A stretch of DNA of 64,000 nucleotides from Cetobacterium sp. ZOR0034. Its GTDB lineage: Bacteria; Fusobacteriota; Fusobacteriia; Fusobacteriales; Fusobacteriaceae. The stretch spans positions 1-64,000 of the forward strand of contig NZ_JTLI01000049.1 of NCBI RefSeq assembly GCF_000799075.1, read 5' to 3'. Positions 45,093 to 63,723 of this stretch are shown here, in pieces (positions within the stretch are counted from its first letter, which is position 1; each line of letters begins with the position of its first letter). Below the pieces are notes generated by a model, which was not told the origin of the DNA, did not search any database, and saw only the letters and a program-made list of their open reading frames with translations. The translations under genes were made by a program, and so were the position numbers.

Positions 45093-48000
45093 TTATTTCA
45101 AGTGTATCAATATCTCTATAGTTTTTTGATATTTTCCCAACTCTACATTACTTACCTCTGGTATCCTTCCTTCTAAATAAAGTGTTCTTTTTCTATTTTC
45201 ATTCGTATCTATTATTTCTGGTCCCAACTTTAAGTCTTTCACGACTAAGGTTTTTTCATCATTTAAGTAAAGTGTATTTGGTTCAGAAGCTGCTCCTCCT
45301 ACATCTATACTATACTCTGCTTTTATAGTTCCTGAGTTATACCAAAGCTCAATATTCGTTCCTTTTTTTATATCTCTATGATTTTTAGGTATTTTTCCAA
45401 AATCCAACTCACCTATAGCTGCAACAAAAAATTCTGGAGATTTTATATTTATCACATATTCACCTAATTTTTTCCCACTCTTATCTCTATAGATTATTGT
45501 CAACCTATCTACCTTATTATTTGTCCAGAAAAGAGGTTTTAACTCCATATCCCCATTTTCAAGCCTCAATATTTTTACTATTGTTCCATTTGCTAAGGTA
45601 ATTCTATTCCCCACTAATCCTTCGATTGCATTTTCATTTATAAATACATTTTCACTCAACTTTTCTGGATAATCTCCTGATAAAAGTTTGATGTCTAAAG
45701 TTTCTTTTGGATACCTAATCTCTAAATTTCCAATTACTACAGAGGAGGATTGGGCAGGATTGTATCTAGAGCTAATAATCAAATCCATCTCTCCTTTTTT
45801 TATGCTTTCTATATTTTTCTTCGTTTCTAATTTTACATTATAAGTTCTTCTTGCATCTCCTGAAGGATCTAAATGCTCTATTGAAATATTATAACTTTCA
45901 TTTCCATTTATATTTGTTAACCACATCTCAGTTTTTTCAGAACTATAATTTAGATTTACTTCTGTTGAGTTTTGATTTTTCTCAATTTTTAAATTTTCAA
46001 TTTTTAGTGCTCCTATATTGTCAGTTTCCCTAACTACACTCTCACCATTTGGTAATGTTATTCTAATTTTATGTTTATATTTCAATCCAAGTAGTGCCCT
46101 ATCTTCAAATATATTTTTCTCTACACCTGTAGGTATAATTGTATTTGAATTTGTAGCAACTATCTTCTCATTTTTATATTCACCATTAAATAACAAATCT
46201 ACATTTTTTATCAAAGCATCTTTTGTTATAACTATTTTTGGAAGATCCATATATTTCACTCTTGTTGCTGTTGCTGGAATACTCGAATCCAATGGCAGAT
46301 ACACTCTAAAATCTCGACTACTTTCATTTCTTCCAATTATAAAAGCAACCTTATTATTATTTCCAGGTTTTGGTTTAAACTCAACTCTTGCTCCTGAAAT
46401 CTCTCTCGCTTCTTTTTGTAAATTTTCTAATATCTCTGTCGAAATATCTATATTCAATCCAGTTGTAACTCTCTCCCAAGCTGATTGATTTGGAGCTAAC
46501 GTATATGAAGCCACTGTTACCAATTTGTTATCTGTCGTTCTTTGAGAATATAGATACGCTTTTGCACTTGTTCCGCTTTCAACTTTTGGATCAACTAACT
46601 CTGGTTTTACTTGGAAGGTTTCCCTTCTTCTCGGTGATTCATATTCCGCTACATAGGATGATCTCCACGTTTCTGTTTGATGTGTACCTCTATTAACCGA
46701 CCATCTACTTTCGTCACCTAAACCTATAGCAGGGATAATATTTGCGACTCTGTCAAACGTTCCATATTGCATCAAACTAAATATTCCTGAAAGATTTGGA
46801 ACTTTCCCTACATAATTATCCGTTATTTCCAAATCTTTAATTGTTGATGTATAAGCCATTACATTTAAATCTCCACCTGCTAAATCTGTCCATTTTAATT
46901 TTAATCTATTGACAATAATCTCCTCTTTTACTCCTGTTGTAGGAGTAGCTTTTATTGATATTTTTACATTTTCAAAAGTATAAACTGTACCCTCTTTAAT
47001 CTCGCCACTGTTTGTCGAAAGAACAAATCTAAGACTTTCAATCTCTTTTGGATTTATTAGAGTACTTTTGTCTCCTGAGAATAAAAGTTTTCCCCTGATA
47101 TTCCCGGTAGTTGAAATCAACTCTGAAGAAGTCACCTCTATTCTGACTCCTACATTATCTCCATATGTTTTAGTAATCTCTTTATCATAATTTTCAAGCC
47201 CTAAAGTTCCCAAATAAACTGTAGTTTCATTAATTTTTCCAGCTACATTTAAAGTTTTTGTTCCACTCTCTATTTGAGGAATCAATGTCGATTCATCTTC
47301 ATTTAGATATGTTCTAGGAGTAAATTCAGCAACTTCAACATTGTATCTATCTACACTCAGAATCTTTCCATATGAGTTTAAATGCTCTAGTTCGATTCTA
47401 TCACTAGCTTTTCGAAGTCCCCACTTTCTCAATCCTACTGCCAATGCAGAGCTTTTTCCTTTCATTAAAACATATGTATTTTCACCTGAATTTATTTCAA
47501 TCTCCTCTTTTAAATGACCATTTAAATCTGTTCTAATCTCTTTATAAAAAACTCCATTTAAATAGGTTTTTATTGTATGAACACTCTTTACGTCGCTATA
47601 TCCGTTCCATCCATCAATTATCCCTGTAACATTTAAAGAGTTAGGGTGCGCTAAGTTAATAGCCATATTATTTGGAGCCACATCTCCATTTTTGAATATA
47701 TCAAAAGTTCCTGTTAAATTTCCCGAAGCTTTTGGAACAGGATTATTAAATTTTATATTTAAAGATTTTTTATCTGCATATGTGTCCTTTACCACGTATA
47801 CATTTGGAAACTCTAATCTTTCTAACTCATTTTTTGCAGAAATCACAAATCTATTTCCTGAGCTTTTTTGTTCCCCCTTTAGCAAATAGATTTTATTATC
47901 AAGTGATTCCTCCCAAGGAATTTTAACTTTACTCTCAGTTTTAGTTGAAGCATATTTCAATATTGTTGAAATTATATCACTTGTAAAATTTACTACAAAG

Positions 48001-49463
48001 TCTCCTCTGACTCGATTAGAACTAGCATCCTCACCTAAAGAGGTGAATCCACCTATACCTAAATTTTCTGTTGTTGATGCACCTCTATTATATATAAAAA
48101 ACTTCTGCTTACTTTGATATGGTGTCTCTCTAATTGTAATTGGTACTTTTAAAGATGTTCCATTCAAATTAAAACTTCCCATTGGTTTTACATCTATAGG
48201 TATTAAAGGCTGATTACTCTCTAAACTCCATTTATCAGCTTTATTTATTGTTATAACTGGAAAAAATTCTGGTGCTATTGATTTCTGATTGATTTCAATC
48301 CAAGAGTTATAAACTTCTACGCTACCATCTTCTCTAATTATTATATCCCCTAAATCTAAACTCTTTGAGTATTCAAACTCTGGAATACTCTCCGATTCCC
48401 CATTACTATTTATAATTAATGTATGTTTTTTTCTATTACCTGTTTCTGTCTCGATATGTTCTATATCTATCACATAACTCTTTCTTCCTGTTGATTTAAT
48501 CTTACTAAAGAAAAAAACGAAATTTCCATCATTTAAATACTTAATTCCTAACTCATCATTATCGTGAGTCGTTGAGTATTGAAATCTTGCTTCATCACTG
48601 ACCTGATCCCCTTTCCATACCTCTCTACTCATTCCCGAAGATTTTAAAGAGATATTTACATTTTTTTTAAAAGAGTTTATAAATCCATCGCTATTTGAAA
48701 CAAACCCAGATTTTTTTATAATTTGAACCTTACTTATATCTACATTTTCAGTTCTATCTCCTGATGATCCCGTCCACATCTCCGTTAGCTCTCCATTTAA
48801 AGTAAACACAAATTTTGAATCTTGCCAGTTTTCTATTCCACCCTCTAAATTAACTATAACACTCTTTTCCTCTATTAGACTTCCTGTAACTGTCGTTGTT
48901 TTAGCTAGTTTTATATCCAAACTATAAATCTTTAATATCTCAGTGTTTGCTTCATTCATAACTGTAATATATAAATTTTCCGGTTCATTTTCATATGGGA
49001 TTTTCAACACTTCTTTTCCACCATATTGAGCTATCTCATAATTTATTGAATTAGAATTATTGCTTCTGGCTTTTCTTGCAGCTCCTTTCACTACCTCCCC
49101 ATAACTTTGAATTTTTGGACTCACATATATATTATATTTTTTTTCTACCTCATCAACTGCTCTTGCTTTCAATCTTGAGTTTTCTATTTTTTTTGAAAAA
49201 TCAACATATATATTTTTATTTTTTTTATCTATGTATACCTCATTCAAAGATTCACTTTTTATCTTTGTTATCTCTATGTTCAACTCTGCTTTAGGCTTTC
49301 TTCCTAATGATTCAATTTTTTCTAGTTCAGGTGCAATCTTCTCTCCAACTTCCCCCTCATCAAGAGCACCTGCAAAAGATGTTACAGATAATACCGAATA
49401 AAAAATTACTATTATAATAAAAAAGAGCCTTTGAAAGCTCTTAATCTTTTGTAGTAGCATCAT
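45093..49463 (-). CDS. Large secreted protein, probable tip adhesin of the pilus
   Basis: 1456 aa. Long signal peptide (hydrophobic 13-31, cut near SFAGA). Beta-rich, no cysteine anywhere. I recognise no family for the first 1330 residues. The last 110 residues look like a pilin domain: GELDFGKIPKNHRDI, then a final GRIPEVSNVELGKYQKTIEI strand of the kind that ends fimbrial subunits. A big unknown domain plus C-terminal pilin domain is the layout of two-domain tip adhesins. Its start overlaps the preceding gene by 23 bases; GGGGAGGG stands just ahead of two consecutive ATGs. It is last in the operon before a strong terminator. Role inferred from layout. Confidence 0.72.
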   Translation of the reverse strand: MMLLQKIKSFQRLFFIIIVIFYSVLSVTSFAGALDEGEVGEKIAPELEKIESLGRKPKAELNIEITKIKSESLNEVYIDKKNKNIYVDFSKKIENSRLKARAVDEVEKKYNIYVSPKIQSYGEVVKGAARKARSNNSNSINYEIAQYGGKEVLKIPYENEPENLYITVMNEANTEILKIYSLDIKLAKTTTVTGSLIEEKSVIVNLEGGIENWQDSKFVFTLNGELTEMWTGSSGDRTENVDISKVQIIKKSGFVSNSDGFINSFKKNVNISLKSSGMSREVWKGDQVSDEARFQYSTTHDNDELGIKYLNDGNFVFFFSKIKSTGRKSYVIDIEHIETETGNRKKHTLIINSNGESESIPEFEYSKSLDLGDIIIREDGSVEVYNSWIEINQKSIAPEFFPVITINKADKWSLESNQPLIPIDVKPMGSFNLNGTSLKVPITIRETPYQSKQKFFIYNRGASTTENLGIGGFTSLGEDASSNRVRGDFVVNFTSDIISTILKYASTKTESKVKIPWEESLDNKIYLLKGEQKSSGNRFVISAKNELERLEFPNVYVVKDTYADKKSLNIKFNNPVPKASGNLTGTFDIFKNGDVAPNNMAINLAHPNSLNVTGIIDGWNGYSDVKSVHTIKTYLNGVFYKEIRTDLNGHLKEEIEINSGENTYVLMKGKSSALAVGLRKWGLRKASDRIELEHLNSYGKILSVDRYNVEVAEFTPRTYLNEDESTLIPQIESGTKTLNVAGKINETTVYLGTLGLENYDKEITKTYGDNVGVRIEVTSSELISTTGNIRGKLLFSGDKSTLINPKEIESLRFVLSTNSGEIKEGTVYTFENVKISIKATPTTGVKEEIIVNRLKLKWTDLAGGDLNVMAYTSTIKDLEITDNYVGKVPNLSGIFSLMQYGTFDRVANIIPAIGLGDESRWSVNRGTHQTETWRSSYVAEYESPRRRETFQVKPELVDPKVESGTSAKAYLYSQRTTDNKLVTVASYTLAPNQSAWERVTTGLNIDISTEILENLQKEAREISGARVEFKPKPGNNNKVAFIIGRNESSRDFRVYLPLDSSIPATATRVKYMDLPKIVITKDALIKNVDLLFNGEYKNEKIVATNSNTIIPTGVEKNIFEDRALLGLKYKHKIRITLPNGESVVRETDNIGALKIENLKIEKNQNSTEVNLNYSSEKTEMWLTNINGNESYNISIEHLDPSGDARRTYNVKLETKKNIESIKKGEMDLIISSRYNPAQSSSVVIGNLEIRYPKETLDIKLLSGDYPEKLSENVFINENAIEGLVGNRITLANGTIVKILRLENGDMELKPLFWTNNKVDRLTIIYRDKSGKKLGEYVINIKSPEFFVAAIGELDFGKIPKNHRDIKKGTNIELWYNSGTIKAEYSIDVGGAASEPNTLYLNDEKTLVVKDLKLGPEIIDTNENRKRTLYLEGRIPEVSNVELGKYQKTIEILIHLK

Positions 49464-49926
49464 GGCCCTCCCCTTTCTCTAACTCTACTCTATTCAAAGA
49501 TTTAGTATACACTCCCATAACAATCGGAAGTTGTCCGACATATTCTCCCTCTATAATCTCTATTTCCTCACCTTTATCTAGCTCACGTCTATCTAATATA
49601 GCGTAAAATTTGACAAGCTCACGTTCTCTTTCTAGAACAATAAAATTTTCTTTTCTATCCATTCCAACCTTTTCAACCTTTATCCATTTTCTTCTATTTG
49701 TCATATTTATATATGGTGGAAACTTAAAAGATATTCTTTTTCCTAAATCTTCCTCTTTATTAGTCGTATATATCTCAACATGCGAGATAGCTACAACTTG
49801 ATTTTTCCCTAGTTCAGTGTGATTTATATTTCTAAATCTCAAAGGTTCAACTATTTTCATTTTAATCTCAGCATATCCTGAAGAAAAAGTTAAGGTAAAA
49901 AGTAAAATCCATATTATTTTTATCAC
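49441..49926 (-). CDS. Small secreted protein of the pilus operon (minor subunit-like)
   Basis: 161 aa. Clear signal peptide (MIKIIWILLFTLTFSSGYA). The mature start EIKMKIVEPLRFRNINHTEL recalls the ends of fimbrial subunits. The rest is beta-rich and charged. No named family is recognised. It starts three bases after the stop of the previous gene, and its end overlaps the large adhesin start. It probably encodes a minor subunit or adaptor joining the tip adhesin to the fibre. Confidence 0.65.
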   Translation of the reverse strand: MIKIIWILLFTLTFSSGYAEIKMKIVEPLRFRNINHTELGKNQVVAISHVEIYTTNKEEDLGKRISFKFPPYINMTNRRKWIKVEKVGMDRKENFIVLERERELVKFYAILDRRELDKGEEIEIIEGEYVGQLPIVMGVYTKSLNRVELEKGEGHDATTKD

Positions 49927-49929
49927 TTC

Positions 49930-50484
49930 TTACCCCTCCCTCAATTCAACTGTTATATATATTTTCTTCTTATGCACACCCTCATTACTAATATTTTTTC
50001 CATCAATATAAAGGTAGTTATCTGTGATAACCTTTTTATTTATATATTTAGGTGAGTATATAAATGTATCTATCTGCCCATCTCCATCAATATCAATCTC
50101 TTTCTCACTATAGTTTAAAGTATAAAAATTTTGTCTATCAGGTTCTTTATTCATCTCTAGTTGAAATGGTATCGTTAACTCTTGGTTATCTATGACAAGA
50201 GCTTTTATTTCAACATCTGTCAATATCTCTAATGGAACTACAACTTTTACTTTTGTATCTAGATTTATTGTATATGAATTTTCCAAAATCCATTTTACCT
50301 CTTCGCCACTATTTTCAACCACTAACTCTTCTGATGGTAATCCAGGGATTACTGGAATCCCCGGAAGTAAATTTGGATCTTTTTGATAATCCTCAGGTAA
50401 TAAAGGCAAAGTAGCTATGCCATAATCATTTGTAAATACATTACAACTTAGAATCAGTAGTATTAGAACTAATAATTTTTTCAT
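49930..50484 (-). CDS. Small secreted protein with calcium-loop-like motif (minor subunit-like)
   Basis: 184 aa from the ATG at 50484, preceded by GGGAGGAG; an in-frame ATG at 50499 lies ahead of that site and is rejected. Signal segment LLVLILLILSC; the Cys could be a lipobox, though the -2 Leu is unusual. The middle holds DIDGDGQID, like an EF-hand/dockerin calcium loop. The end GVHKKKIYITVEL resembles a terminal pilin strand. The gene overlaps the usher end by 44 bases. Function unknown; most likely a pilus component. Confidence 0.65.
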   Translation of the reverse strand: MKKLLVLILLILSCNVFTNDYGIATLPLLPEDYQKDPNLLPGIPVIPGLPSEELVVENSGEEVKWILENSYTINLDTKVKVVVPLEILTDVEIKALVIDNQELTIPFQLEMNKEPDRQNFYTLNYSEKEIDIDGDGQIDTFIYSPKYINKKVITDNYLYIDGKNISNEGVHKKKIYITVELREG

Positions 50485-53095
50485 ACTCTCCTCCCTCACT
50501 AAAGAATATCTGTTTTAATGTTAATTTTTCTCTATCTAGATGAATTATGAATCTATTTTCTTGGTCATCATAATAACCTAGTTGAACGCTTTCTGCTAAC
50601 TTTTTAACTTTATTATCAATTCCAATATATTCTATTTGTAGAAGATATTTTCTTGTATATAATCCACTAACTTCAAACGTTCCATCACTTTCTGGGTTTA
50701 AATACTCTACAATTTTTCCTGTTTCATCGATAACCTTAATCAAGGTATTCTCGTAAAATAAAGCTATCTCTTTTTCTGATAGATTCAAACTACTGTCTAT
50801 TTTGAACTCTCCAGTGATTGTTACCATAGGTTTTACAGGAATCGGTGCTATCACTGTTCCAACTTGCTGACCTATAACTTTTATTTTTGTATTTCCAATT
50901 GTATAAGATGGTTTTCTAATTGTAGGTTTCAAATCATACATTATTTTATTAGGTACACCATAAAACATAGCCTCTCCATTTTCATCTGTATCCTCTTCTT
51001 GATCACCTATTTTTACAGATACATACTCCACTCTCTCCTCATCTTCATCCATAACTCCATTGTCATTACTATCTAAGAAAGTTATTACTTTAACCCTTGA
51101 GCTATCTATACTTTCTAGTGGTTTTTTTATATTCTTCAAATCTACAACTCTATTGATTCCAGCTGAATATCTTTGTGCTCCACTTTCATCTACATTTATC
51201 TCTCCTGTTAGCCAATTATCGTAGTTCAGAGTAAATCTAAATGTAAACTTTTCTCTATATATCTCTGAATATCCAAATTCTAAAGAGTAATCAAAAATAC
51301 TAAATATATTTTTGTTTGTAAATTTTAAAACTGATTCTAAATCCTTTCCACCATCTAACCAGTAGTTGCTCAGTTGAACATTATATTTTTTAAAACCGTT
51401 ATAATACATATTCAGCTCATAACTATCTTTTTCGTTTAACGATTTATTGTAATCTAGAGTCATTAAAACATCTTTATATCCTTTGCTTAAACTTATGCCA
51501 ATACTCTCGTCTCTCTCTTTTGTTCCATCGTAATACTTTGTTTTAGATGTATCGTAGCTCAGTTGGAAAACTCCTTTTGGATTATATATAAATGAATATT
51601 CTTCATCTGATTTCTCATTAAAATATCTTCCATAGTTTGCTCTTTTAAAAATAAATCTCAAATCTTTAATATCAATTTGATAAGTTCCGTCATAAGAGTA
51701 ACGGTCACTATTGCTTCTACCTTCATTATTCTCAATTGATGTATTTAAAGCTCTTTCTGTTCCCAATACTAAAGTGTAAGGGAATCGATAGATATAGTTA
51801 CTGTAAACTCCCTCTCCTCTTAAATGCTCTAAATACTCTATTCTTCTATCCCCGATATCTTCTGGTTCACGCTTATATCCTAATCCAAAGGTTAAATTTT
51901 CTGTCAATCCATGATATATATTAGCATTTATAGAGTATCTGTCATATGCATCCTCCTCATAAATAGAGAAATCATACTCTGTTTCACCTCTATTTTGTTG
52001 ATAATAGTTTGTCGCTGTATCTATATCGATTGTGTATATACGACCATCTGGAGTATATACTCTCAGAGTATAACGTCTGTTCTCTTGGATTTCAGAGTTA
52101 TTAAATTCTACTGTTCCATCTACGGCATCTTTAACATCTATAGAATATCCTAAATACAAAAGTTCAACCTTACTTCCTATAGGAACATTTTCTCTGATTA
52201 CATAGTTCTTTCCAATTTTATAATAACCTTTTTCCTTTCTAAAAGTCATTCCCCACTCTCTCGCTCCACCACTACCATTATTTTCAATCTCTAAAGAGTG
52301 TTCTTTATAAATTTCAGGATAATATAGACTCAAATTTCCAAGCTCTTCATTTTTCACATCATAAGCTGCTGTAAACTCTCCATACAATAAAGGTCCTTGG
52401 TATTCTAAATTTCCTGTCCAATCTGTTTCAAGTTTTCTATTTTCTGAATCAGTTCCACTCTTATTTGCTATCGCCTGAAAATCAAATCTCATATATCCAA
52501 CATCAAAAGCTCTTTTCTCACTTGTAAAAATTAACTCTCTTGAACCTTGGGTATCTATTAACCCATCTCTTACATTTTGCAAGTATGTCTCTATATCAGA
52601 GGATGTCTCAAAGTTTAATCTCACAGAGATTGTGTCATTCTCTCTATCTATATACATATCTCTAAGAAATATATCTTTAAATTTTTCACTTTCAATAAAA
52701 AAATCACTTTGTTCAATTAAAACTCCAACATCCTTAGGTTTAATTATTACCTTTCTGACATCAGTTCCTAGTGTTGCTGTCAAAATCTCGCTTTGAATTG
52801 AATAGTCTTTATATCCAATCGAATTAAATAAGTTAACAACTGGTAGGTATATCTTATCTCCATCTATAACTACAGGGTAAACATCACTGACCTTAGCTCC
52901 ATTCACTTTTAAACTATAAAAATTCTCCCTCTCTTGTACTCCAGAAAGTTCATTTAAAAGAATTTGATATTCCTCTTCTGTTAACATATTCAGATTTTTT
53001 AATTCATTTAACTCTTGAAGAGTAAAATCAGCAGAATATGTTAATAATGCTATGCATATATATGTCAGTAGATAGAATATCGCTTTTAACTTCAA
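50441..53095 (-). CDS. Usher-like outer-membrane assembly protein 1
   Basis: 884 aa, TTG start six bases from GGGGGTG. Signal peptide to about residue 21. The body reads as an outer-membrane barrel with the usher-type block RENVPIGSKVELLYLGYSID, then DGTVEFNN and RYTLRVYTPDGRIYTIDI, as in alternative (CS1/TcfC-like) ushers. From residue 664 a C-terminal periplasmic section has a calcium-loop-like DSNDNGVMDEDEE (675-687) and beta-sandwich domains. No cysteine is seen in the mature part, unlike classical ushers with a C-terminal disulfide. It should be the pore that receives chaperone-subunit complexes. The superfamily is likely; the exact clade is not determined. Confidence 0.78.
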   Translation of the reverse strand: MKLKAIFYLLTYICIALLTYSADFTLQELNELKNLNMLTEEEYQILLNELSGVQERENFYSLKVNGAKVSDVYPVVIDGDKIYLPVVNLFNSIGYKDYSIQSEILTATLGTDVRKVIIKPKDVGVLIEQSDFFIESEKFKDIFLRDMYIDRENDTISVRLNFETSSDIETYLQNVRDGLIDTQGSRELIFTSEKRAFDVGYMRFDFQAIANKSGTDSENRKLETDWTGNLEYQGPLLYGEFTAAYDVKNEELGNLSLYYPEIYKEHSLEIENNGSGGAREWGMTFRKEKGYYKIGKNYVIRENVPIGSKVELLYLGYSIDVKDAVDGTVEFNNSEIQENRRYTLRVYTPDGRIYTIDIDTATNYYQQNRGETEYDFSIYEEDAYDRYSINANIYHGLTENLTFGLGYKREPEDIGDRRIEYLEHLRGEGVYSNYIYRFPYTLVLGTERALNTSIENNEGRSNSDRYSYDGTYQIDIKDLRFIFKRANYGRYFNEKSDEEYSFIYNPKGVFQLSYDTSKTKYYDGTKERDESIGISLSKGYKDVLMTLDYNKSLNEKDSYELNMYYNGFKKYNVQLSNYWLDGGKDLESVLKFTNKNIFSIFDYSLEFGYSEIYREKFTFRFTLNYDNWLTGEINVDESGAQRYSAGINRVVDLKNIKKPLESIDSSRVKVITFLDSNDNGVMDEDEERVEYVSVKIGDQEEDTDENGEAMFYGVPNKIMYDLKPTIRKPSYTIGNTKIKVIGQQVGTVIAPIPVKPMVTITGEFKIDSSLNLSEKEIALFYENTLIKVIDETGKIVEYLNPESDGTFEVSGLYTRKYLLQIEYIGIDNKVKKLAESVQLGYYDDQENRFIIHLDREKLTLKQIFFSEGGEYEKIISSNTTDSKL

Positions 53096-53116: not shown

Positions 53117-53821
53117 TCATTTTATTTTTTCTTTATATAAAATTTTTCCGTTTAAAGAATCTTTTACAATTAGCTCTTCAATACTTTTAAAATTTTCTAA
53201 AAACTTTTGATTTAATTTTTCTGCTGCAACTTTTTCTCCTCTAAGTAATCTTAAATTTCCTAAATATATTTGATTTCTACTATTCTTATCTCCTAAAAAA
53301 AACTCTAAAGTTCCTCTTCTTTCTCCAACATTGGCTATATCACCCTTAAATTTTAGCTCTTGATTTTCTACTTTTACATTTAGATCTTTGAAATATACCT
53401 TTGGATTTAGTTCTCCCACATACCCTGCTATATCCATCTTTAAGTGTGTTAAAATCTGAACAGATGCTGTGCTATCTTTTGGATTATTAGGTAATCCCAT
53501 CTCTTTTATCCCAACTGTGACTAGATACTCTCCTGCTGGAACACCTTTTGGTGCTCTTGCTAAAACTTTAAACTTTCCACTTCCGCCAGGTTTTAACGTT
53601 ATTGTAGTCGGATAAAGCTCTATCCAATCCTTCATCGATTTCTCCAATCTGCTATCATCTAAATATATTTGATATCTCAAACTATTTTTTGTAGGGTTAT
53701 AGAGTGTGTACTCTTGAACTTCCCCTCTTCCATCTATTCTTTTATCAAATGTAACTGGATGAACATTTACATATGAAAATAACGATGTTGCTAAAAGAAA
53801 AAATATTAAAACAACTTTCAT
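53117..53821 (-). CDS. Periplasmic pilus chaperone 2 (PapD-like)
   Basis: 234 aa, signal peptide to about residue 16. The first immunoglobulin-like domain starts VHPVTFDKRIDGRGEVQEYT and carries SGKFKVLARAPKGVPAGEYL, the strand that in such chaperones completes the pilin fold. A second beta domain follows. It is clearly related to the other chaperone of the operon (shared FDKRID/FEQRID start). No cysteines. It lies 21 bases before the usher. Two chaperones in one operon suggests that different subunits use different chaperones. Confidence 0.8.
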   Translation of the reverse strand: MKVVLIFFLLATSLFSYVNVHPVTFDKRIDGRGEVQEYTLYNPTKNSLRYQIYLDDSRLEKSMKDWIELYPTTITLKPGGSGKFKVLARAPKGVPAGEYLVTVGIKEMGLPNNPKDSTASVQILTHLKMDIAGYVGELNPKVYFKDLNVKVENQELKFKGDIANVGERRGTLEFFLGDKNSRNQIYLGNLRLLRGEKVAAEKLNQKFLENFKSIEELIVKDSLNGKILYKEKIK

Positions 53822-53833
53822 AGGCCCTCCTTC

Positions 53834-53890
53834 AATAACTTCTTAAAAAAAAGAGAGAAGAGATCTTCTCTCTAATTTTAAGAAGTTATT
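53834..53890 (-). terminator. Nested hairpin behind the pilin gene (attenuating terminator)
   Basis: Inner 9-bp stem agagagaag/cttctctct (53852-53860, 53865-53873) with minus-strand TTTTTTTT after it. It is embedded in an outer perfect 15-bp inverted repeat (53834-53848 with 53876-53890). It covers the pilin 3' end and probably gives much pilin mRNA and little read-through to chaperone 2 and usher. Confidence 0.78.
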
Positions 53891-54474
53891 TAATTTCCTA
53901 CTCCTCCTGTTCCTGTTGGTGTTGGTGTATAAACAACTGTTAAAGTTGGTCTATCTGCTCCGTTGTTGTATATTCCCTCTTCTAATTTTGTCGCATTTAA
54001 TTGATCTCTTGGTATAACTGAGTTAACTCTTCCTGTATGCTCTGTTCCGTTTATTTCAGCTTCGTACCCTCCTGTAGCATTTGTCTTTCCACCCGCCAAA
54101 GAAAGTACCGAATCTAATTTCCCACTATTAGGACCAATTAATTTTGTTGTGTATTTATTTAAATTAACAGTTAGTTTTCCATTCATTTCTACATATTCAT
54201 TGCTTGAATCACCCATCTTTACTTTAAATAATTTAAAAGCTTTAGAGTCGTCTGTCGCTGCTCCTTTTACAATTCTTCCATGGTCAATTAATAGTTCATC
54301 TAAAACTGTCCCCGCTTCATCAGTTATAGTAAGTCCTGCCTGTGGCGCTGTTATTTCTGCTAAAACTTTTACTGGAACTGATGCCGTCCCTTCAGTTGTA
54401 GCTGTTCCCGTCCCTGGATTAGCTGCAAACGTAGCTACTGATAATGCCATGATTCCGAATAATACTCTTTTCAT
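53890..54474 (-). CDS. Major pilin-like subunit
   Basis: 194 aa. Signal peptide MKRVLFGIMALSVATFA, mature N-terminus ANPGTGTATTEGTASVPVKV. The mature part is beta-rich and cysteine-free and ends with EEGIYNNGADRPTLTVVYTP, the G-x-Y plus beta-strand typical of chaperone-usher subunits. Its place between two chaperones and the hairpin after it support the major-subunit role. A strong AGGAGG precedes the ATG. The small protein at 25.1-25.4 kb shares the ASVPVKVLAEI stretch. Confidence 0.78.
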   Translation of the reverse strand: MKRVLFGIMALSVATFAANPGTGTATTEGTASVPVKVLAEITAPQAGLTITDEAGTVLDELLIDHGRIVKGAATDDSKAFKLFKVKMGDSSNEYVEMNGKLTVNLNKYTTKLIGPNSGKLDSVLSLAGGKTNATGGYEAEINGTEHTGRVNSVIPRDQLNATKLEEGIYNNGADRPTLTVVYTPTPTGTGGVGN

Positions 54475-54532: not shown

Positions 54533-55255
54533 CTACATTTTCTTCTTAGTTATCTCCTCATAAGTTGAAGATTCTCTAAGCCTTACCCCGACTATATCTT
54601 TTCTTTTCATATCTTTTAAAACCATTTTAAACTCATCACTTTTTCCAACTCCAATACGTCCTCTTTCCATAGATTCATAGTTTTCATTTCCTCTCAAAAC
54701 ATCGACATTGTACCAAACACCTCTTTTATCAGTATTATTTTTTACTTTAAAAGCAAGCTCTGTTTTTCCATCTGAGTTCTCACTTGTTTTTATATCAACT
54801 ATCTCTAGTTTAGGTTTTAAATCCCCAACATAACCTATAATCTCTATACTCACATCCAACCCCATCCGAGCTGCAGCAGCCACAGTCTGACCATCAGATT
54901 TTTCTAACTCAGGAACTGGTACTGATACAAAATTTAAAAATGAGGAATACTCTCCCTCTTCAGTATTCTTGGGTGCTTTTATAAAAACTTTAAGTACAGA
55001 TTTACTTTGAGGTTTTATTGTTATTATTTTAGGGCTATACTCAATCCATTTATCTGAGTCTCCATTATATCTTCCTGTGCCTGGTAAAGCAGTCACTTTG
55101 AATCGTTGAGTTTTTGTACTGTTATTTGTTAAAACAAACTCTTGATACCCACCACTTTTATCTATCCTTTGCTCAAAAAAAGTCGGTGTTATGTGAAAGG
55201 AAAATGTAGTTGTATAAAATAATAACAATAACAAATAAAATCTTAGTAAAAACAT
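54533..55255 (-). CDS. Periplasmic pilus chaperone 1 (PapD-like)
   Basis: 240 aa from the ATG at 55255, five bases from GGAGG; an ATG at 55267 overlaps that site and is rejected. Signal peptide rich in Leu/Tyr. Ig-like domain 1: FHITPTFFEQRIDKSGG, WIEYSPKIITIKPQSKS and LKVFIKAPKNTEEGEYSSFL; domain 2 is beta-rich. It has no cysteine. It is first in the operon, directly behind the c-di-GMP riboswitch. Confidence 0.82.
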   Translation of the reverse strand: MFLLRFYLLLLLFYTTTFSFHITPTFFEQRIDKSGGYQEFVLTNNSTKTQRFKVTALPGTGRYNGDSDKWIEYSPKIITIKPQSKSVLKVFIKAPKNTEEGEYSSFLNFVSVPVPELEKSDGQTVAAAARMGLDVSIEIIGYVGDLKPKLEIVDIKTSENSDGKTELAFKVKNNTDKRGVWYNVDVLRGNENYESMERGRIGVGKSDEFKMVLKDMKRKDIVGVRLRESSTYEEITKKKM

Positions 55256-55298
55256 AAAAACCTCCATATTTTTTTTCTAAACTATTTTTAAAAAAAAA

Positions 55299-55393
55299 TG
55301 CACCTTGAGTACAAATTTGTACTCAACGTGCAACTGGCTACCATTTGATTAGGCCCTATAGCTTTGCGTCCTGCAGTTTCCTGCAGTTTGCGG
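55299..55393 (-). promoter_or_regulatory. Class I c-di-GMP riboswitch (GEMM-I) with terminator, upstream of the pilus operon
   Basis: Minus strand: P1 5' strand GCAAAC, P2 CTGCAG-GAAA-CTGCAG with GNRA loop, conserved GGACGCAAAGC, P3 region TATAGGGCCTAA ... GGTAGCC, and closing GTTGC. This is the GEMM-I consensus order. The aptamer (55330-55393) runs into a terminator hairpin (55299-55332): arms TGCAC-x-TTGAGTACAAA and complement, nine Ts. The P1 3' strand and the terminator foot share three bases, so ligand binding may hinder termination (an on-switch, inferred). The first gene downstream is pilus chaperone 1. Confidence 0.92.
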
Positions 55394-55692
55394 AAATTAT
55401 CTTTTCAAAATTAGTGATTCAATAGTTTATTCTGAAATAGATTTTATTTTCCTGTTTTTTCTCAAAAATAAAATTACAGATACTTATTAAATTTTTATTC
55501 ATATTTTTATTTTCACTAATTTCGAAAAGAAATTATCATTGTTTTTTTATCTCTGCTCATATTAGCATTTTTTTATTTTTTATTCAAGTCGTGATGTTTT
55601 TCTTATTTTCAAAAAAAAGGAAAAATTATTTTGGAACAGTATAATTATAAAAACACTATAATTTTTTATAAATTACAAGGAGGAAAGAGTAT
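55394..55692. other. AT-rich divergent region between riboswitch and regulator A
   Basis: It holds no gene. On the minus strand GATAAT (55396-55401) with TTGAAT (55417-55422, 15-bp spacer) is a tentative riboswitch promoter. On the plus strand TATAAT-like boxes at 55640-55645 and 55657-55662 precede regulator A. No clear operator is seen. Confidence 0.4.
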
Positions 55693-57087
55693 ATGTACAT
55701 AAACAATCGCCATCTTCAGATTTTAAAATTAATTAAAAATAACAATAATTTAACTTCTAAAGAGATAGGAGATCTTTTTTCAATGTCTGCACAACATACA
55801 AAACTTTATCTAGAAGATATCTATTCCAAACTCTATAACTCTGAAGCTTCAGATATTAAAAGTACAACTCTTATAGAAAAAATTTCATCCTCAAAAAATT
55901 CAAGAAATAAATTAAAAAAAACTCAAGAGTTTTCTAAAAATGAAAAAATCTTTTATCTTTTATTTCGATTGATAAAAGATAAATATATAAACTTATCAAA
56001 AATCTCTGATGAACTTGGCATAACTAAAAGAAATTTAAATTACTATTTAACCGAAATCTCTATCATTATGAAAAACTATAATTTAAAATTTAAAGCAACA
56101 AACAAAGGATTACAACTTATAGGAACTAACTTTTCTTTTAAGCACTTAACCTATTTACTGACCTTTAAATTTTGTATAGAAAAAGAATTTTTACCAACAA
56201 AAATAAGAAATGAAGTTATCTCTTTTCTTAAGATTGATAATTTCTGCCTTTTAAAAAAAGATATATATTCTTTTATGTCTTTAATTTCTTCTGAATACAC
56301 TACTCATAAAACTAGTTCTATCTTCTCATTTTATTTTGCATTTAGAGTTCGAGATAATGAAGTGAAAATCGGAGATATGAGTGAAGAATTTATTTATCGA
56401 CATAAACCTGCTCATTTCGAAGATGAGTTTTTTAAAAAAATTGTTTATTTTTTTAAAAATTCATCTTTTAAATATCTCAATACTAATTCTATTAGTGAAC
56501 TAATAACAATAATAGATACTATTTATTACTCACATAGGAAGTTTCAAAAACAAGAATTAAATAAATCTGTCCAACTAAGACCTATTTTTGCTAAATATCT
56601 TGGAGATCAAATATATAAAAATAATAGCTTTTTCACTATTATAAATCCTTGGGTTTATTATACCGCTTTAAGAGCTCGTTTCTCTATCGAAGACTCTGCT
56701 TTTCTAAAGTTGAACTTAGAACATATCTACAACTCCAATGTTTTAAGCCTAACAAAGGAGATTAACTCTATTATCCCGAACTTTACTATATTTGAAACTC
56801 TTTCCGTTTGGTATCAACTTTCCGAATTTGAAGATAATAGTATAAAAAATATTTTTATTTTCAGAGATTTAAATATAAATATTGTTCCTATAATAGTTAA
56901 TGAAATCTATAAAAAACATAATATAAAAATCTCTGAGTATATTAATGTTCGTTCTTTAAGAAAATACCTTAAAGAGAATTCTGTTGATAATATCATAACC
57001 GTTGAAAATATTAAGCTTTATGATAGTAGTTTAAATGTAAAAAATATTTTTTTTCCAATTCCTAACTACAAAAAAATTAATCCTTAA
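55693..57087 (+). CDS. MtlR/Mga-like transcriptional regulator A
   Basis: 464 aa, ATG behind AAGGAGG. Two helix-turn-helix segments are visible: residues about 8-45 (NLTSKEIGDLFSMSAQHTK) and 95-130 (NLSKISDELGITKRNLNYYL). A long helical middle follows, then a C-terminal alpha/beta part (IFIFRDLNINIVPIIVNEIY ... VDNIITVENI) that looks like a PTS IIB-like module. It is divergent from the riboswitch-controlled pilus operon and is the obvious local regulator candidate. It is closely paralogous to regulator B at 59.1-60.6 kb. Confidence 0.78.
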   Translation: MYINNRHLQILKLIKNNNNLTSKEIGDLFSMSAQHTKLYLEDIYSKLYNSEASDIKSTTLIEKISSSKNSRNKLKKTQEFSKNEKIFYLLFRLIKDKYINLSKISDELGITKRNLNYYLTEISIIMKNYNLKFKATNKGLQLIGTNFSFKHLTYLLTFKFCIEKEFLPTKIRNEVISFLKIDNFCLLKKDIYSFMSLISSEYTTHKTSSIFSFYFAFRVRDNEVKIGDMSEEFIYRHKPAHFEDEFFKKIVYFFKNSSFKYLNTNSISELITIIDTIYYSHRKFQKQELNKSVQLRPIFAKYLGDQIYKNNSFFTIINPWVYYTALRARFSIEDSAFLKLNLEHIYNSNVLSLTKEINSIIPNFTIFETLSVWYQLSEFEDNSIKNIFIFRDLNINIVPIIVNEIYKKHNIKISEYINVRSLRKYLKENSVDNIITVENIKLYDSSLNVKNIFFPIPNYKKINP

Positions 57088-57495: not shown

Positions 57496-58833
57496 TTATA
57501 AACATTTTATATTCTTTAAATTTTTTAAAAGAAAAAATTTTAAATCTATAAAATTACTTTCTAATGGAAAACTACTAATTTTATAAACTGGTGTTTCTAA
57601 AGTCTCGTTTATATTTCCACTAGTTATAATTAAATCATACTCATCATCAGCACCAAATATCTCAAATATATGTGATGATATCTTATCTATCTTTTTAAAA
57701 TCAAAGATATTTTTTAATTTTTTTTGAATGAGATCTTTTACAACTTCTAATTCATCACATATAAAAAGTACTTTAAGTTCCTTGAAATTAGAGTATTCCT
57801 TCATAGCAAGTTGATTATATAACAAATAAAAAATACTCTGAATATCCTTATCGATCAAAATATCACTTTTCATTTTTTCTGAAAAATCTTTATAAAAATT
57901 TGTTTCACAAATTTTTTCTGGAATAGGCAAAGTTTCTCTAATATCCCCAAGTTCTTTTAAAAGTTTTTCTAGAAGCACATCATCTGCATCTATCTCTAAA
58001 GTATCTATTATATCTTTTAAAATATCTTTTACTTCTTTCAAACTATCATTTTTATTCACTTTTCTCTCTTTTGAAGACACCTTTAATATAAACTCCTCTC
58101 CTTGAGTTGAAGTTATAAATTCGTTTATCTCCTCTATATTATACCCTGTTTTATTTTGTTCTAATTTATGCCTTGTATTTAAAGCAGCCAATTTACAAAA
58201 CACTTTATTATATTCTACCAAACTATAGTTATTTCCTAAAAGTTCTTTCATTTTTGTTTTTAAAACTGCTGGAGTTATATCTCCAACTATTCTTCCTATT
58301 AAATCTTTTAGAACATTTGGTAAATTTACAAACTGCTTATCAATTACTTTACGAATCTCCTCTTCAAATATATCTACTATATTTTCTGCTTCACCTGTTA
58401 CTGATATTCCTTTCGATGCAAACTCGCGAATAAAAACATCTTTTCTCTGAAACTCATTTTTTATTATCAACATATCTTTCTTCAGAGTTGTTCTTGATAT
58501 ATTTAAGAACTCTGCTTCTTTTGTTAAATTTACCATCTGTTTAGATAAAATTTTTAATTTCAAATAACTTTTTCTATTCTCCGAAAACATTCCTCCAAAA
58601 TCTGAAATAATTTTATTTAAATCATTACTTTTCAAATTAACTTGCAGTGCTCCACCATCAATTTTTTTTATTTCGTCTAGTTTATAACTTTTCAAAATAT
58701 AATTGATGTTATCAATATCATACCTAATCGTTCTTATATGTACGTTAAAGTTTTCAGATAATTTTTTTAATGTAAATCCATTTGTTTCATTTAAAACTGA
58801 TAAAATATTAATACATCGTTCGTTGATAACCAT
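57496..58833 (-). CDS. BglG/MtlR-like transcriptional regulator C, under a c-di-GMP riboswitch
   Basis: 445 aa from the ATG at 58833, eight bases from GGAGG; a GTG at 58848 overlaps the site and is rejected. Two helix-turn-helix domains (about 8-60 with LKKLSENFNVHIRTIRYDID; about 85-130 with AEFLNISRTTLKKDM), a helical middle, and a C-terminal IIB-like domain with LKVLFICDELEVVKDLI and DEYDLIITSG. A class I c-di-GMP riboswitch lies about 150 bases upstream in the same orientation, so its level should depend on c-di-GMP. It is less similar to A and B than they are to each other. Confidence 0.8.
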   Translation of the reverse strand: MVINERCINILSVLNETNGFTLKKLSENFNVHIRTIRYDIDNINYILKSYKLDEIKKIDGGALQVNLKSNDLNKIISDFGGMFSENRKSYLKLKILSKQMVNLTKEAEFLNISRTTLKKDMLIIKNEFQRKDVFIREFASKGISVTGEAENIVDIFEEEIRKVIDKQFVNLPNVLKDLIGRIVGDITPAVLKTKMKELLGNNYSLVEYNKVFCKLAALNTRHKLEQNKTGYNIEEINEFITSTQGEEFILKVSSKERKVNKNDSLKEVKDILKDIIDTLEIDADDVLLEKLLKELGDIRETLPIPEKICETNFYKDFSEKMKSDILIDKDIQSIFYLLYNQLAMKEYSNFKELKVLFICDELEVVKDLIQKKLKNIFDFKKIDKISSHIFEIFGADDEYDLIITSGNINETLETPVYKISSFPLESNFIDLKFFLLKNLKNIKCL

Positions 58834-58984
58834 CTTTTTTACCTCCACTCCATATAATTTATTTTAGTTATCTTCATTATACTATCTTTCATAACATCCG
58901 TCTCTATGAAGGTTTTTTTATTTTTTATAAAATATTTTTCATATAACATTCATTATAAATAAAAAAACTTTCAATTAAAAAAAA

Positions 58985-59080
58985 TACATCTTGAATTTTT
59001 ATAAAATTCAACGTGTAACTGGCTGCCATCTCAATTTAGGCCCTATAGCTTTGCGTCCTTCAGTTTCCTGAAGTTTGCCA
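58985..59080 (-). promoter_or_regulatory. Second class I c-di-GMP riboswitch (GEMM-I) with terminator, upstream of regulator C
   Basis: Minus strand: GGCAAAC, P2 CTTCAG-GAAA-CTGAAG, conserved GGACGCAAAGC, TATAGGGCCTAA, GGCAGCCAGTT, then GTTAC. The core is identical to the first riboswitch, with compensatory changes in P2 (CTGCAG pairs to CTTCAG/CTGAAG). The terminator (58985-59017) has arms TACA-xx-TTGAATTTT and complement, with eight Ts. P1 is weaker here (GCAA against TTAC leaves one mismatch). Confidence 0.9.
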
Positions 59081-59147
59081 TTTTTATATTTAAACACTTC
59101 CCTTACTATATTCTTTATTCTAATCTTACACTATTTTTCCTGCTTTT

Positions 59148-60563
59148 TTGAAGATAAAATTACATTCAAAAAATATATTGTTCTTTTCTTTATTATTCTT
59201 GAAATTAATTAAGATTAATCCTTATTTAACATCAAAAGAAATTGGCAATCTTTTCTCTATGTCTCCACAGCACACAAAACTCTATTTAGAAGATATCTAT
59301 TCTGAACTATATAATTCTGATAGTTTAGAAATAAAAAGTAATACTCTCATCGAAAAAATATTTCTATCAAAAAATGCTAAAATTCGATTGAGATCTGTCC
59401 AAGAACTTTCTAAAAATGAGAAAATTTTTTATTTTCTATTTTGTTTAATTAAAAATAGAGTTGTTAATTTATCCAATCTATCCAATGAGTTAAATATTAC
59501 CAAGCGAAATTTAAATCACTACCTAAACGAATCTTTACCTATACTAAAAACTTATCGCATTAAAATTAAAACAACAAACAAGGGATTACATCTTATTGGA
59601 AATAACTTTGCCATCAAGCGTCTAACATATATTCTTACTTTTAAATTTTGTATTGAAAAAGAATTTCTTCCATTAAAACTTAGAAGTGAAATAGGAACTT
59701 TTCTTAAAATTGATAATTTTGACATTATCAAAAAGGACATCTATTCTTTTGTATCTTTAGTTTGCAAAGAGGATGCCACACGTAAAATGCAATCATTTTT
59801 TTCATTTTATTTTGCTTTTAAAGTTAAAGGAGATGAGAGTAAAATAGGAGATATGGATGAAACATATTTTTATCGTCACAAGCCAGCTCACTTTGAAAAC
59901 ACTTTTTTTAAAAAAATTATATTTTTTTTAAAGTATAGTTCTTTTAAAAATCTTTCTACTAACTCTATAAGTGAACTTATCAGAATTATAGATATAATTT
60001 ATTATTCACACAGAAAATTTGAAAAAAGTGATATTCAAAAAGCAACACTATTAAAACCGATATTTGCAAAGTATATTGGTAATCAAATTTATAAAAATAA
60101 TCGTTTTTATACGCTTATTAACCCATGGATATACTACACAAGTTTAAGAAATCAATTTTCCATAGAAGATTCTTCTTTTTTAAAACTTAATCTTCAGCAT
60201 ATTTATAACTCAAATGTTCTAACTTTAACAAAAGAAATCAATACAATAATTCCTAATTTTACAATTTTTGAAACTTTATCCATCTGGTATCAACTTTCTG
60301 AATTTGAAGATAAAAGTATAAAAAATATTTTTGTTTTTAGAGATTTAAATATCAATATTATCTCAATAATTACAAAAGAAATCTACAAAAAACACAATAT
60401 AAAAATTTCAGAGTCCATCAATATTCGTTCTTTAAATAGATATTTGAAAGAGAATCGAGTTGATAATATCATAACAGTTGAAAATATCAAATTTTATGAT
60501 TCTAATTTGAATATAAAAAATCTATTTTTTCCAATTCCAAACTATAAAAAAATAGAAACATAA
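59148..60563 (+). CDS. MtlR/Mga-like transcriptional regulator B, paralogue of A
   Basis: 471 aa if read from a TTG at 59148; no ATG and no AGGAGG-like site are seen near the expected N-terminus. From residue 19 (LKLIKINPYLTSKEIGNLFS) it aligns without gaps to regulator A to the end (FFPIPNYKKI), with well over half of the residues identical by eye. Domains are the same: two helix-turn-helix segments, helical middle, IIB-like C-terminus. It is either translated from a poor start or has lost its start recently; the body shows no stop or frameshift. It is divergent from riboswitch 2. Confidence 0.7.
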   Translation: MKIKLHSKNILFFSLLFLKLIKINPYLTSKEIGNLFSMSPQHTKLYLEDIYSELYNSDSLEIKSNTLIEKIFLSKNAKIRLRSVQELSKNEKIFYFLFCLIKNRVVNLSNLSNELNITKRNLNHYLNESLPILKTYRIKIKTTNKGLHLIGNNFAIKRLTYILTFKFCIEKEFLPLKLRSEIGTFLKIDNFDIIKKDIYSFVSLVCKEDATRKMQSFFSFYFAFKVKGDESKIGDMDETYFYRHKPAHFENTFFKKIIFFLKYSSFKNLSTNSISELIRIIDIIYYSHRKFEKSDIQKATLLKPIFAKYIGNQIYKNNRFYTLINPWIYYTSLRNQFSIEDSSFLKLNLQHIYNSNVLTLTKEINTIIPNFTIFETLSIWYQLSEFEDKSIKNIFVFRDLNINIISIITKEIYKKHNIKISESINIRSLNRYLKENRVDNIITVENIKFYDSNLNIKNLFFPIPNYKKIET

Positions 60564-61170: not shown

Positions 61171-63723
61171 CTAGTCTAAAATTTCATCTTCTATAAGCTC
61201 AATTGATTTTATTGCAAAATTATTATCTTCATAATAATCTCCTTCACGACCACTCTTAACTTTAAGATTAATGACTTTTTTATCAAAAGTTCCTATGTAT
61301 CTTCGGCTATTAGGAACGATTTCAATTATATATTCGCCTGGTAAAACATCTTCAAAGAAATAATATCCATCAATCTCCGGAGTTGTTCGCTCTACTTCCT
61401 CTCCATTCTTTTTTAGAACTATATCTAAGCCTGCTAATACAGAATAATAAACTCTTTCATTTATTAATAAACTATTTTCTACATACCCACTAATCATAGA
61501 TACTGGTACCAAAGGAATATCCACATTTACTCTTGATGAAGTCGCGCCCTTGAACTTTATTACCTCTTTCCCTTGAACTAACATAGGGTCAATCGTTTCT
61601 CTATTCACTTCTATTGTATGTATATTGGTATTGCTTATATCTCCAATTATATAATTACCGTTTTCTCTTGTTAGTCCACTTCCTCCAGAGGTCATTATCT
61701 CTGCTCCCTCATATATCTCTTCATTTTCATCTAAGATACCATTGATATTTTCATCTACAAACACTTTACCTTCTACCCAACCATCTGTAACGCTGTTGTT
61801 GTTCAGTGCTAAGAATGGATTTCCTAAATAAAATGTTTTTTCAACTCTTCCACCAACTTTAGTTTCTCCATCCTCTCTTCTTATATCAGGCAGTTCAATA
61901 TAGATGTTTTTATCAAATATATATGTAAATCTTAACTCAAAAAATGTTCCTTTTTCTTTAGAGTAACCTACTTCAAAAGTTGTATCCACATTTCTAAGTA
62001 ATCCTCTTTCACTTGTTGCTTTGGTTACACCTAACTTTATCTCATCATCTACCATCTCATTGTCCTCATAGTTAACTTTTCCCTCTAATACAGCTAATAT
62101 TCCATTGAAACCAGAATAAGTCATTCTCATCTCTGTTCCAAATCCCTCTAATTTATTAGTTTGACTATCAGAAAAATTTCTAATATAGTATTCATTATTT
62201 AAACTTAATCTCACACTTCTTGCTAGATCATAGTCCAAATTCAAATAATACTCATCATAATTATTAGAATTATATGACTCTTTTAAATATCCAATTGTTC
62301 CACCTAAACGTCTAAAACTTTTACTTAGCTCAACATTATATGACTCTTTTAGGTTTAGTTTTTCAGCAACTCTATCACCATAGTTTTCATATCCAAAATA
62401 AAAATTTATATTACTTGGTAACTTTTGCTCTAATGTGGCTTTATAGTTCAGCTCCCCAGACTCCATCTCATCTAAAATAGTTCCTGAGATTAGAGTTGGG
62501 TACTCATCAAATCCAAATCGATAAGCTAGAGCTCCCTCTAAAACCTCATATTTTTCAGAATCTCTATTCTCTAAGAAAGAGGTTCCTATTGTTGCAGTTA
62601 AATCTTTTGTTACACCATATCTGTACTTAGCTAAATACTGCTCTTTTTTCTGATTATTTCCCTGGCCAGCTTGAATAACAAAATCATTCTCACCTTTTTC
62701 TAAGATAGTTTGATTCCCTAAGATATAAATTGCTTTCGTTTCCTCTCTTCCATCTCTATAGAAAATTTTTATTGTGTACCTATCAGATGATGAGCTGTTT
62801 CTAACTCTAAAACTAAAGCTATCTCCCGTAATCATTTGGAAATCCTCTAATCTATCATTTCTATAAAGTTCAACTAAATTTGCATTATAGGCTAAACCCT
62901 CAATTATAGTTCTGTTATCTATTCTAATTCCATAGTATTCATTTCTTGAGAAACTAACCCCCCTTAATGATCTTTCATTATCAAACATCGAGTCACTCTC
63001 TAAATAGAAATCTCCAAAAGTCAGATAATACTCTCCAAATATCTCTTTATATTGTAATCTTATATAATCTAATTCACTCTCGGGATAAACTCTTTGAGAT
63101 ATTTGAAACTCTCCATATAAAAGCTCTGTTCCATAATCTATATCTATATAATAATCATTCTCTTTAAAATCTTCATTAACATATACAAACTTTAACAGTC
63201 CTGGAGATAATAGTTTCTTTTTATTTTGAATATAATCTCCACTTTCTATCATCTCTTCCTCTCGTTTTGCCAATCCAAGTAAACTTCTTTGAGCATTTAG
63301 CTCTCGAACATACTCATCTTGAGTTTTAAAATCTGGATTTAATTTCAAAACATAACGCTCCTCATCCCAGTCAGAACTTATCATATGAAAATATCTTTTA
63401 AAATCATCTAATTTTATAAATATATCATTATCCATCTCTATAACAGAATTTTTAGGAATTCTAACATCTATTGACAACTCCTCATCTAAATCACCTTTTA
63501 CTCTTAAACGTCTTCTATCTAATTTCAGATTTGGAATTCTTGAAAAATCTATAAAATCACCTATTCCTATATAAAGATCTTGAGTATCCTCATCTAATAA
63601 CACCCTGTAAAAGTCATTTTTATGCCCTCTCATATCTATCTCTATATATGCCTCTTCTGGCAATGAAAAGACGGCTACTCTTAGAAGACAAAACAATGTA
63701 ATAAACCCCTTTATATTTTTCAT
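61171..63723 (-). CDS. Usher-like outer-membrane assembly protein 2
   Basis: 850 aa. Signal peptide to about residue 19 (VAVFS). An N-terminal region of about 150 residues is followed by a barrel-like middle; ANLVELYRNDRLEDFQMITG and RVRNSSSSDRYTIKIFYRDG correspond to the usher block seen in usher 1. A C-terminal section begins near residue 655 with GKVFVDENINGILDENEE (calcium-loop-like, SdrD_B-like), then two beta domains. The mature part has no cysteine. It is divergent from usher 1 over most of its length, so this is a second, distinct assembly line. The upstream partial gene looks like its subunit. Confidence 0.76.
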   Translation of the reverse strand: MKNIKGFITLFCLLRVAVFSLPEEAYIEIDMRGHKNDFYRVLLDEDTQDLYIGIGDFIDFSRIPNLKLDRRRLRVKGDLDEELSIDVRIPKNSVIEMDNDIFIKLDDFKRYFHMISSDWDEERYVLKLNPDFKTQDEYVRELNAQRSLLGLAKREEEMIESGDYIQNKKKLLSPGLLKFVYVNEDFKENDYYIDIDYGTELLYGEFQISQRVYPESELDYIRLQYKEIFGEYYLTFGDFYLESDSMFDNERSLRGVSFSRNEYYGIRIDNRTIIEGLAYNANLVELYRNDRLEDFQMITGDSFSFRVRNSSSSDRYTIKIFYRDGREETKAIYILGNQTILEKGENDFVIQAGQGNNQKKEQYLAKYRYGVTKDLTATIGTSFLENRDSEKYEVLEGALAYRFGFDEYPTLISGTILDEMESGELNYKATLEQKLPSNINFYFGYENYGDRVAEKLNLKESYNVELSKSFRRLGGTIGYLKESYNSNNYDEYYLNLDYDLARSVRLSLNNEYYIRNFSDSQTNKLEGFGTEMRMTYSGFNGILAVLEGKVNYEDNEMVDDEIKLGVTKATSERGLLRNVDTTFEVGYSKEKGTFFELRFTYIFDKNIYIELPDIRREDGETKVGGRVEKTFYLGNPFLALNNNSVTDGWVEGKVFVDENINGILDENEEIYEGAEIMTSGGSGLTRENGNYIIGDISNTNIHTIEVNRETIDPMLVQGKEVIKFKGATSSRVNVDIPLVPVSMISGYVENSLLINERVYYSVLAGLDIVLKKNGEEVERTTPEIDGYYFFEDVLPGEYIIEIVPNSRRYIGTFDKKVINLKVKSGREGDYYEDNNFAIKSIELIEDEILD

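Follow-up and report, generated by a model that had tools for sequence, protein, structure and literature searches.

The pilus operon and its leader

In the window, that is, the whole 64,000-nucleotide stretch of Cetobacterium sp. ZOR0034 DNA that was analysed, seven genes on the minus strand follow one another in the order chaperone, pilin, chaperone, usher and genes for proteins of 189, 161 and 1456 amino acids (aa). In the order of transcription the leader opens with the motif CAGGAAAATAAAATCTATTTCAGAATAAA at 55454-55426, followed by a riboswitch aptamer, a terminator, a GGAGG sequence and the first chaperone gene. As a preliminary description of this DNA had stated, the terminator (stem 55332-55299, nine U) and then pilus chaperone 1 lie behind the aptamer, the open reading frame starting at 55267 or 55255.

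The gene for chaperone 1 (54533-55267, 244 aa) more likely starts at 55255, where an ATG stands behind the GGAGG. The sequence evidence for its product consisted of a PapD_N match (E 0.0018, weak alone), found for 11 of 17 relatives, and a profile match to CsuC (E 3e-4). Its AF2 model (pLDDT 82) matched the folds of CsuC, CfaA, FimC and others, with the best E value of 8.4e-10 for CsuC, as expected for a PapD-like periplasmic chaperone. Chaperone 2 (53117-53821, 234 aa) belongs to the same family. The gene between them (53890-54474, 194 aa) encodes the probable major pilin, judged from its position, a secretion signal and an iterative profile leading to DUF4402-type pilin-like proteins; the protein gave no Pfam match of its own. 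A strong terminator-like hairpin (53852-53873, minus strand) separates the pilin gene from that of chaperone 2 and may set the ratio of pilin to usher.

For the outer-membrane usher (50441-53095, 884 aa), searches by sequence against Pfam, NCBIfam and PDB profiles gave nothing decisive. Its AF2 model has moderate confidence (pLDDT 63), and the top 17 Foldseek matches in the PDB were all FimD/PapC (best E 2.4e-22), consistent with a predicted 24-strand barrel and plug fold. The identity as a chaperone-usher pilus operon, proposed in the preliminary description, is settled by these predicted structures of usher and chaperone. The two secreted proteins that follow, of 189 aa (49930-50499) and 161 aa (49441-49926), are each kept in 8 riboswitch-led operons, and the last gene of the conserved operon (45093-49463) encodes a large surface protein of 1456 aa, the probable tip or adhesin component. 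Behind it lies a terminator with a 10-pair stem and a T run (45077-45054), at which the operon probably ends; given the strength of this terminator, membership of the giant DUF11 gene beyond it is doubtful. That gene (29182-44949, minus strand) encodes a 5255-aa DUF11-repeat-like surface protein, and its homologue in another genome (G010) is led by a GEMM-I element and the 450-aa regulator (see below). A second usher gene (61171-63723, minus strand, 850 aa) had no GEMM-I upstream in the examined stretch.

The leader RNA is a member of the GEMM-I family

The covariance search that the preliminary description had proposed as a check gave a match to RF01051 (c-di-GMP-I, GEMM-I) at 55326-55402 on the minus strand with cmscan, at 53.8 bits (curated cut-off 35 bits) and E 1e-7, covering model positions 1-87 and thus the full length. 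No RF01051 match was found in 14 control genomes. Together with the E value and the recurrence of this arrangement at four orthologous operons of other Cetobacterium genomes, this excludes chance, and the RNA is a GEMM-I family member on the minus strand ahead of the pilus operon, as had been described. The genome holds seven GEMM-I elements in total.

The aptamer has a GAAA-capped P2 (CTGCAG-GAAA-CTGCAG) together with the tetraloop receptor in P3, and the GGACGCAAAGC core, the GGGCCTAA receptor strand and the closing GTTGC are all present. In GEMM-I, the two ligand bases sandwich A47 by stacking, and C92 forms a base pair with Gbeta. Both equivalents are intact: A47 at 55365, invariant in 143/143 elements, and C92 at 55330, the second base of the terminator 5' arm region that is common to aptamer and terminator. 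The earlier statement of a full GEMM-I consensus was therefore correct for P2, core, receptor and GTTGC and failed at one nucleotide, the one before GCAAA (55392), which is C and not G.

A second riboswitch and a common upstream motif

A second and stronger GEMM-I element, absent from the preliminary description, is located at 59011-59089 on the minus strand (cmscan 67.6 bits), with the canonical G20 and its own overlapping terminator. It leads a gene for a Mga/EbpR-like HTH regulator of 450 aa (57496-58848, minus strand; HTH_11 E 6.6e-9, Mga HTH), which scored 37 bits against the AcpB/EbpR/MafR NCBIfam model with its 130-bit cut-off. Within the window the two riboswitches are sister elements, given that their upstream regions align with each other whereas those of the orthologous pilus leaders do not. 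In the alignment a motif, CAGGAAAA..CAGAATAAA at 55426-55454 before the pilus riboswitch, recurs as CAGGAAAA..TTAGAATAAA at 59114-59142 before the second one (both minus strand). Genome-wide, the motif was matched twice on the expected strand, in both cases ahead of the riboswitches of the window, compared with one match for the reversed control, and it is a probable promoter or operator.

Divergent to each riboswitch, on the plus strand, lies a gene for an HTH regulator, encoding a 464-aa protein (55693-57087, HTH_24) at the pilus operon and its 471-aa paralogue (59148-60563, assigned by sequence similarity) at the second riboswitch. The two riboswitches presumably share a promoter, and the messenger would raise the regulator and, if the aptamer with C at 55392 still responds, the pilus. 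The second riboswitch, the 450-aa regulator and the common motif suggest a feed-forward circuit.

GEMM-I elements ahead of usher genes in Fusobacteriaceae

Surveyed across the phylum, GEMM-I was found in Fusobacteriaceae only, with 143 elements in 36 genomes (one sub-threshold match is left out of this set). Among 91 usher genes found with an usher profile, 29 had a GEMM-I element on the same strand no more than 8 kb upstream, compared with an estimate of about 0.5 from element density; these come from five genera and represent at least three types of operon. The other 62 of the 91 ushers have no GEMM-I, so that the wiring is not universal. Four further Cetobacterium genomes (G005, G007, G008 and G009) have the same seven-gene operon behind a GEMM-I element, and four genomes (G002, G006, G007 and G008) a related operon type. 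Many genomes and genera have the third type (HD-GYP phosphodiesterase, SBP, DUF4402, usher, chaperone) behind a GEMM-I as well. Further elements precede solitary genes for DUF4402 pilin-like proteins, and in G051-G054 (L134, L136, L142 and L132) successive pilin-chaperone cassettes of one cluster have a GEMM-I each, some with G20 and some with A20. No usher relatives were found in viral contigs.

The GEMM-I-led type III usher operons, at L060:1034-9752 (G000:C9) and its relatives, open with SBP and an HD-GYP phosphodiesterase gene, so that the enzyme expressed under riboswitch control may degrade the ligand of that same riboswitch, a negative feedback. In most Cetobacterium genomes a recurrent GEMM-I (L059, L064, L070 and others) stands before the gene for a MarR-type regulator of 96-97 aa, next to which lie two HTH regulators of 460 aa. 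The elements of other genera (G014, G071 and G075; e.g. G042:C11:243524) often lack the C92-sharing terminator and have another expression platform, which may represent other modes of regulation.

The terminator and the aptamer share a strand

From the minimum free energy (MFE) fold of the 114-nt leader and a terminator scan, an intrinsic terminator was predicted with its stem at 55299-55332 and its tract of nine U at 55290-55298 (minus strand), the 5' foot of which, UGCAC, overlaps the 3' strand of the aptamer. In the MFE structure P2 and the terminator are formed, and C92 is paired with a G in the 3' foot of the terminator. The hairpin has a free energy of -21.5 kcal/mol with the foot and -12.2 kcal/mol without it, and in the latter case six bases lie between the terminator stem and the U tract. 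C92 was found within the predicted terminator stem in 89 of 142 elements.

Covariation between the shared strand and its partner in the terminator was examined with the alignment anchored at nt 92; to avoid circularity, the register was set from a fold that did not include nt 86-91. The base opposite nt 89 was G in 12 of 13 elements with C at this site and in none of 66 with T (Fisher's exact test, kinship ignored, p = 2.5e-13), and the base opposite nt 91 was U in 8/8 elements with A (Fisher's exact test, kinship ignored, p = 0.0012). The sequences are related and their kinship inflates the p values, though the pattern of bases is plain to see. An earlier ungapped test, in which partners were extrapolated outward from nt 93, had shown no excess over swapped partners, owing to register errors.

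Given that the terminator arm tracks the 3' strand of the aptamer, ligand binding and termination would be mutually exclusive, as in an ON switch. The UGCAC overlap and the covariation thus support an ON-type architecture in which aptamer and terminator exclude each other through a common strand, the sense already guessed in the preliminary description from the bases shared between P1 and the terminator foot, and the direction of control in cells is presumably ON as well. The pilM riboswitch of Geobacter, a proven ON switch, has the same P+A versus T+A+H layout (PMC9262584). In the proposed mechanism, the 3' strand of the aptamer, including C92, would in the ligand-free state be drawn into the terminator foot, and closure of the foot would set the hairpin flush against the U tract so that transcription stops before the chaperone gene. 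In the ligand-bound state the strand would be kept in the aptamer, the foot would stay open and RNA polymerase would read through.

A cytosine at the site of the ligand-contacting G20

The deviating nucleotide directly before GCAAA (55392, minus strand) corresponds to position 20 of Vc2 and model position 11. G20 of GEMM-I contacts Galpha, one guanine of c-di-GMP. With C at this site the pilus aptamer has neither the G of the c-di-GMP-specific subclass nor the A of the cGAMP subclass GEMM-Ib. Across the 143 elements position 20 was G in 125 (87%), A in 14 and C in 4; the four orthologous pilus leaders have G in three cases and A in one. Nucleotides other than G were commoner ahead of chaperone or usher genes (11/41) than elsewhere (7/102; p = 0.0036, kinship ignored). 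C20 was also present in three other genomes, in two elements that are otherwise intact and have good terminators (G004:C191 and G068:C35) and in one (G002:C2:13825) in which C92 of the pocket has also become G and which leads a broken operon. Relative to the sister element at 59011-59089, two neighbouring bases of the pilus aptamer are changed (T19G20 to CC). A deletion between the -10 and the aptamer, considered from the orthologous pilus leaders as the cause of the G20 loss, was ruled out, as the alignment with the sister riboswitch is gapless and contains substitutions only.

Changing G20 in Vc2 lowers c-di-GMP binding about 30,000-fold, and G12U at the equivalent position of Vc1 lowers the output of this ON switch in cells, the U not wholly abolishing binding (PMC4744006). 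Exchange between A20 and G20 swaps the specificity between cGAMP and c-di-GMP (eLife 43959 = PMC6456294). As no published experiment on C20 turned up in the literature, its effect was deduced from the A20 and U20 changes, and in this copy C20 may stand for weakened binding, for decay or for a change of specificity. With the terminator intact we expect the response to ligand to be weakened or altered, and the operon would then be biased to OFF and more dependent on its promoter and regulators.

The genome encodes 15 GGDEF domains; the 13 that were read all have the diguanylate-cyclase Asp and none of them has the Hypr Ser signature. The genome is thus predicted to make c-di-GMP, and cGAMP was rejected as a likely ligand in this genome for want of a Hypr signature in these 13 of 15 domains. 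With G20 so prevalent, the ligand of the family across Fusobacteriaceae is most likely c-di-GMP. The earlier claim that c-di-GMP directly controls the operon accordingly has support at the level of the family, whose wiring is kept across Fusobacteriaceae, and does not stand as worded for the copy at 55326-55402.

Taken together, the leader is probably a GEMM-I riboswitch that attenuates transcription of the seven-gene chaperone-usher operon in the ON sense, the C20 copy having a weakened or altered response. The copy could instead be decaying, with sensing lost, a terminator that merely damps expression and an operon that is near-silent or driven by promoter and regulators; we consider this a real though lesser possibility. 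The double change relative to the sister element and the C20 element with C92 to G before a broken operon point that way, but the seven downstream genes have uninterrupted, full-length reading frames, and the terminator foot remains an exact match to the aptamer strand, which drift would erase. It is somewhat less probable that the copy is a normal c-di-GMP ON riboswitch that tolerates C20, for example through a C+ Hoogsteen contact or a compensating pocket. The rest of the pocket is intact, as are P2, the receptor, the terminator and the operon, C20 recurs in the two otherwise intact elements and the U in Vc1 left some binding, which has to be weighed against the loss of the Galpha contact with its cost in Vc2, the specificity flip caused by an A/G exchange and the rarity of C (4/143). 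An altered specificity, for another cyclic dinucleotide or as a pH-dependent response, seems unlikely: position 20 is the known specificity site, non-G nucleotides are enriched ahead of pilus genes and the orthologous leaders, with this one, carry G, G, G, A and C, but no C20 ligand is known, the enrichment p value ignores kinship and the GGDEF domains that were read have no Hypr signature. We likewise doubt that natural C20 (or A20) elements at Fusobacteriaceae pilus operons sense another signal than their G20 siblings; if they did, one bacterium would tune several pili through several cyclic-dinucleotide inputs on one RNA scaffold. An assembly or sequencing error at 55392 is very improbable even in a draft genome of 121 contigs, given two adjacent changes in the 55391-55393 region and the C20 elements of the other genomes.

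Comparison with known systems

Control of chaperone-usher pili by c-di-GMP is known via proteins. To our knowledge, the known archaic and alternative chaperone-usher pili are protein-regulated and have no riboswitch. Like Csu and CFA/I, which are of this kind, the Cetobacterium operon has PapD-like chaperones nearest to CsuC and CfaA by fold, two in number, an usher nearest to FimD/PapC and DUF4402-like pilins; unlike theirs, its usher and pilin are too divergent for Pfam.

The pilus copy resembles Vc2 and Vc1 of Vibrio cholerae (RF01051) in its aptamer fold, GAAA tetraloop and receptor, A47 and C92, and Vc1, an ON switch for an adhesin, also in the predicted sense of control. It differs from both in C20, in a transcription terminator instead of translational control and in the chaperone-usher target. 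With pilM and the GEMM-Ib cGAMP riboswitches of Geobacter it has in common an aptamer 3' strand shared with the terminator, pilus genes as target and an altered position 20, which is A20 ahead of type IV pili in Geobacter and C20 ahead of a chaperone-usher pilus here, where no Hypr GGDEF signature was found. Cdi-2-4 before pilA1 of Clostridioides difficile is likewise a c-di-GMP riboswitch that turns on a pilus by antitermination, but it is of another aptamer class (class II) and serves another pilus type.

The preliminary description knew of no c-di-GMP riboswitch before a chaperone-usher operon, and none was found in the open literature, but one review (PMC6366702) mentions riboswitches before putative fimbrial genes in Aeromonas. 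These are probably the closest precedent for riboswitch-led fimbriae, although they belong to another phylum and their pilus type is not stated in the review. Novelty thus lies neither in the RNA class nor in the ON layout, both of which are known, but in the well-conserved chaperone-usher target.

As far as we know, c-di-GMP signalling in gut Fusobacteriota is almost unstudied. With G20, A20 and C20 forming a natural series at orthologous pilus operons, the way in which riboswitch specificity evolves can be tested directly. Fusobacteriaceae appear to wire chaperone-usher pili, lone pilin genes and successive pilin-chaperone cassettes to a second messenger directly by RNA, and this gives a model, open to testing, of how gut Fusobacteriota attach to surfaces.
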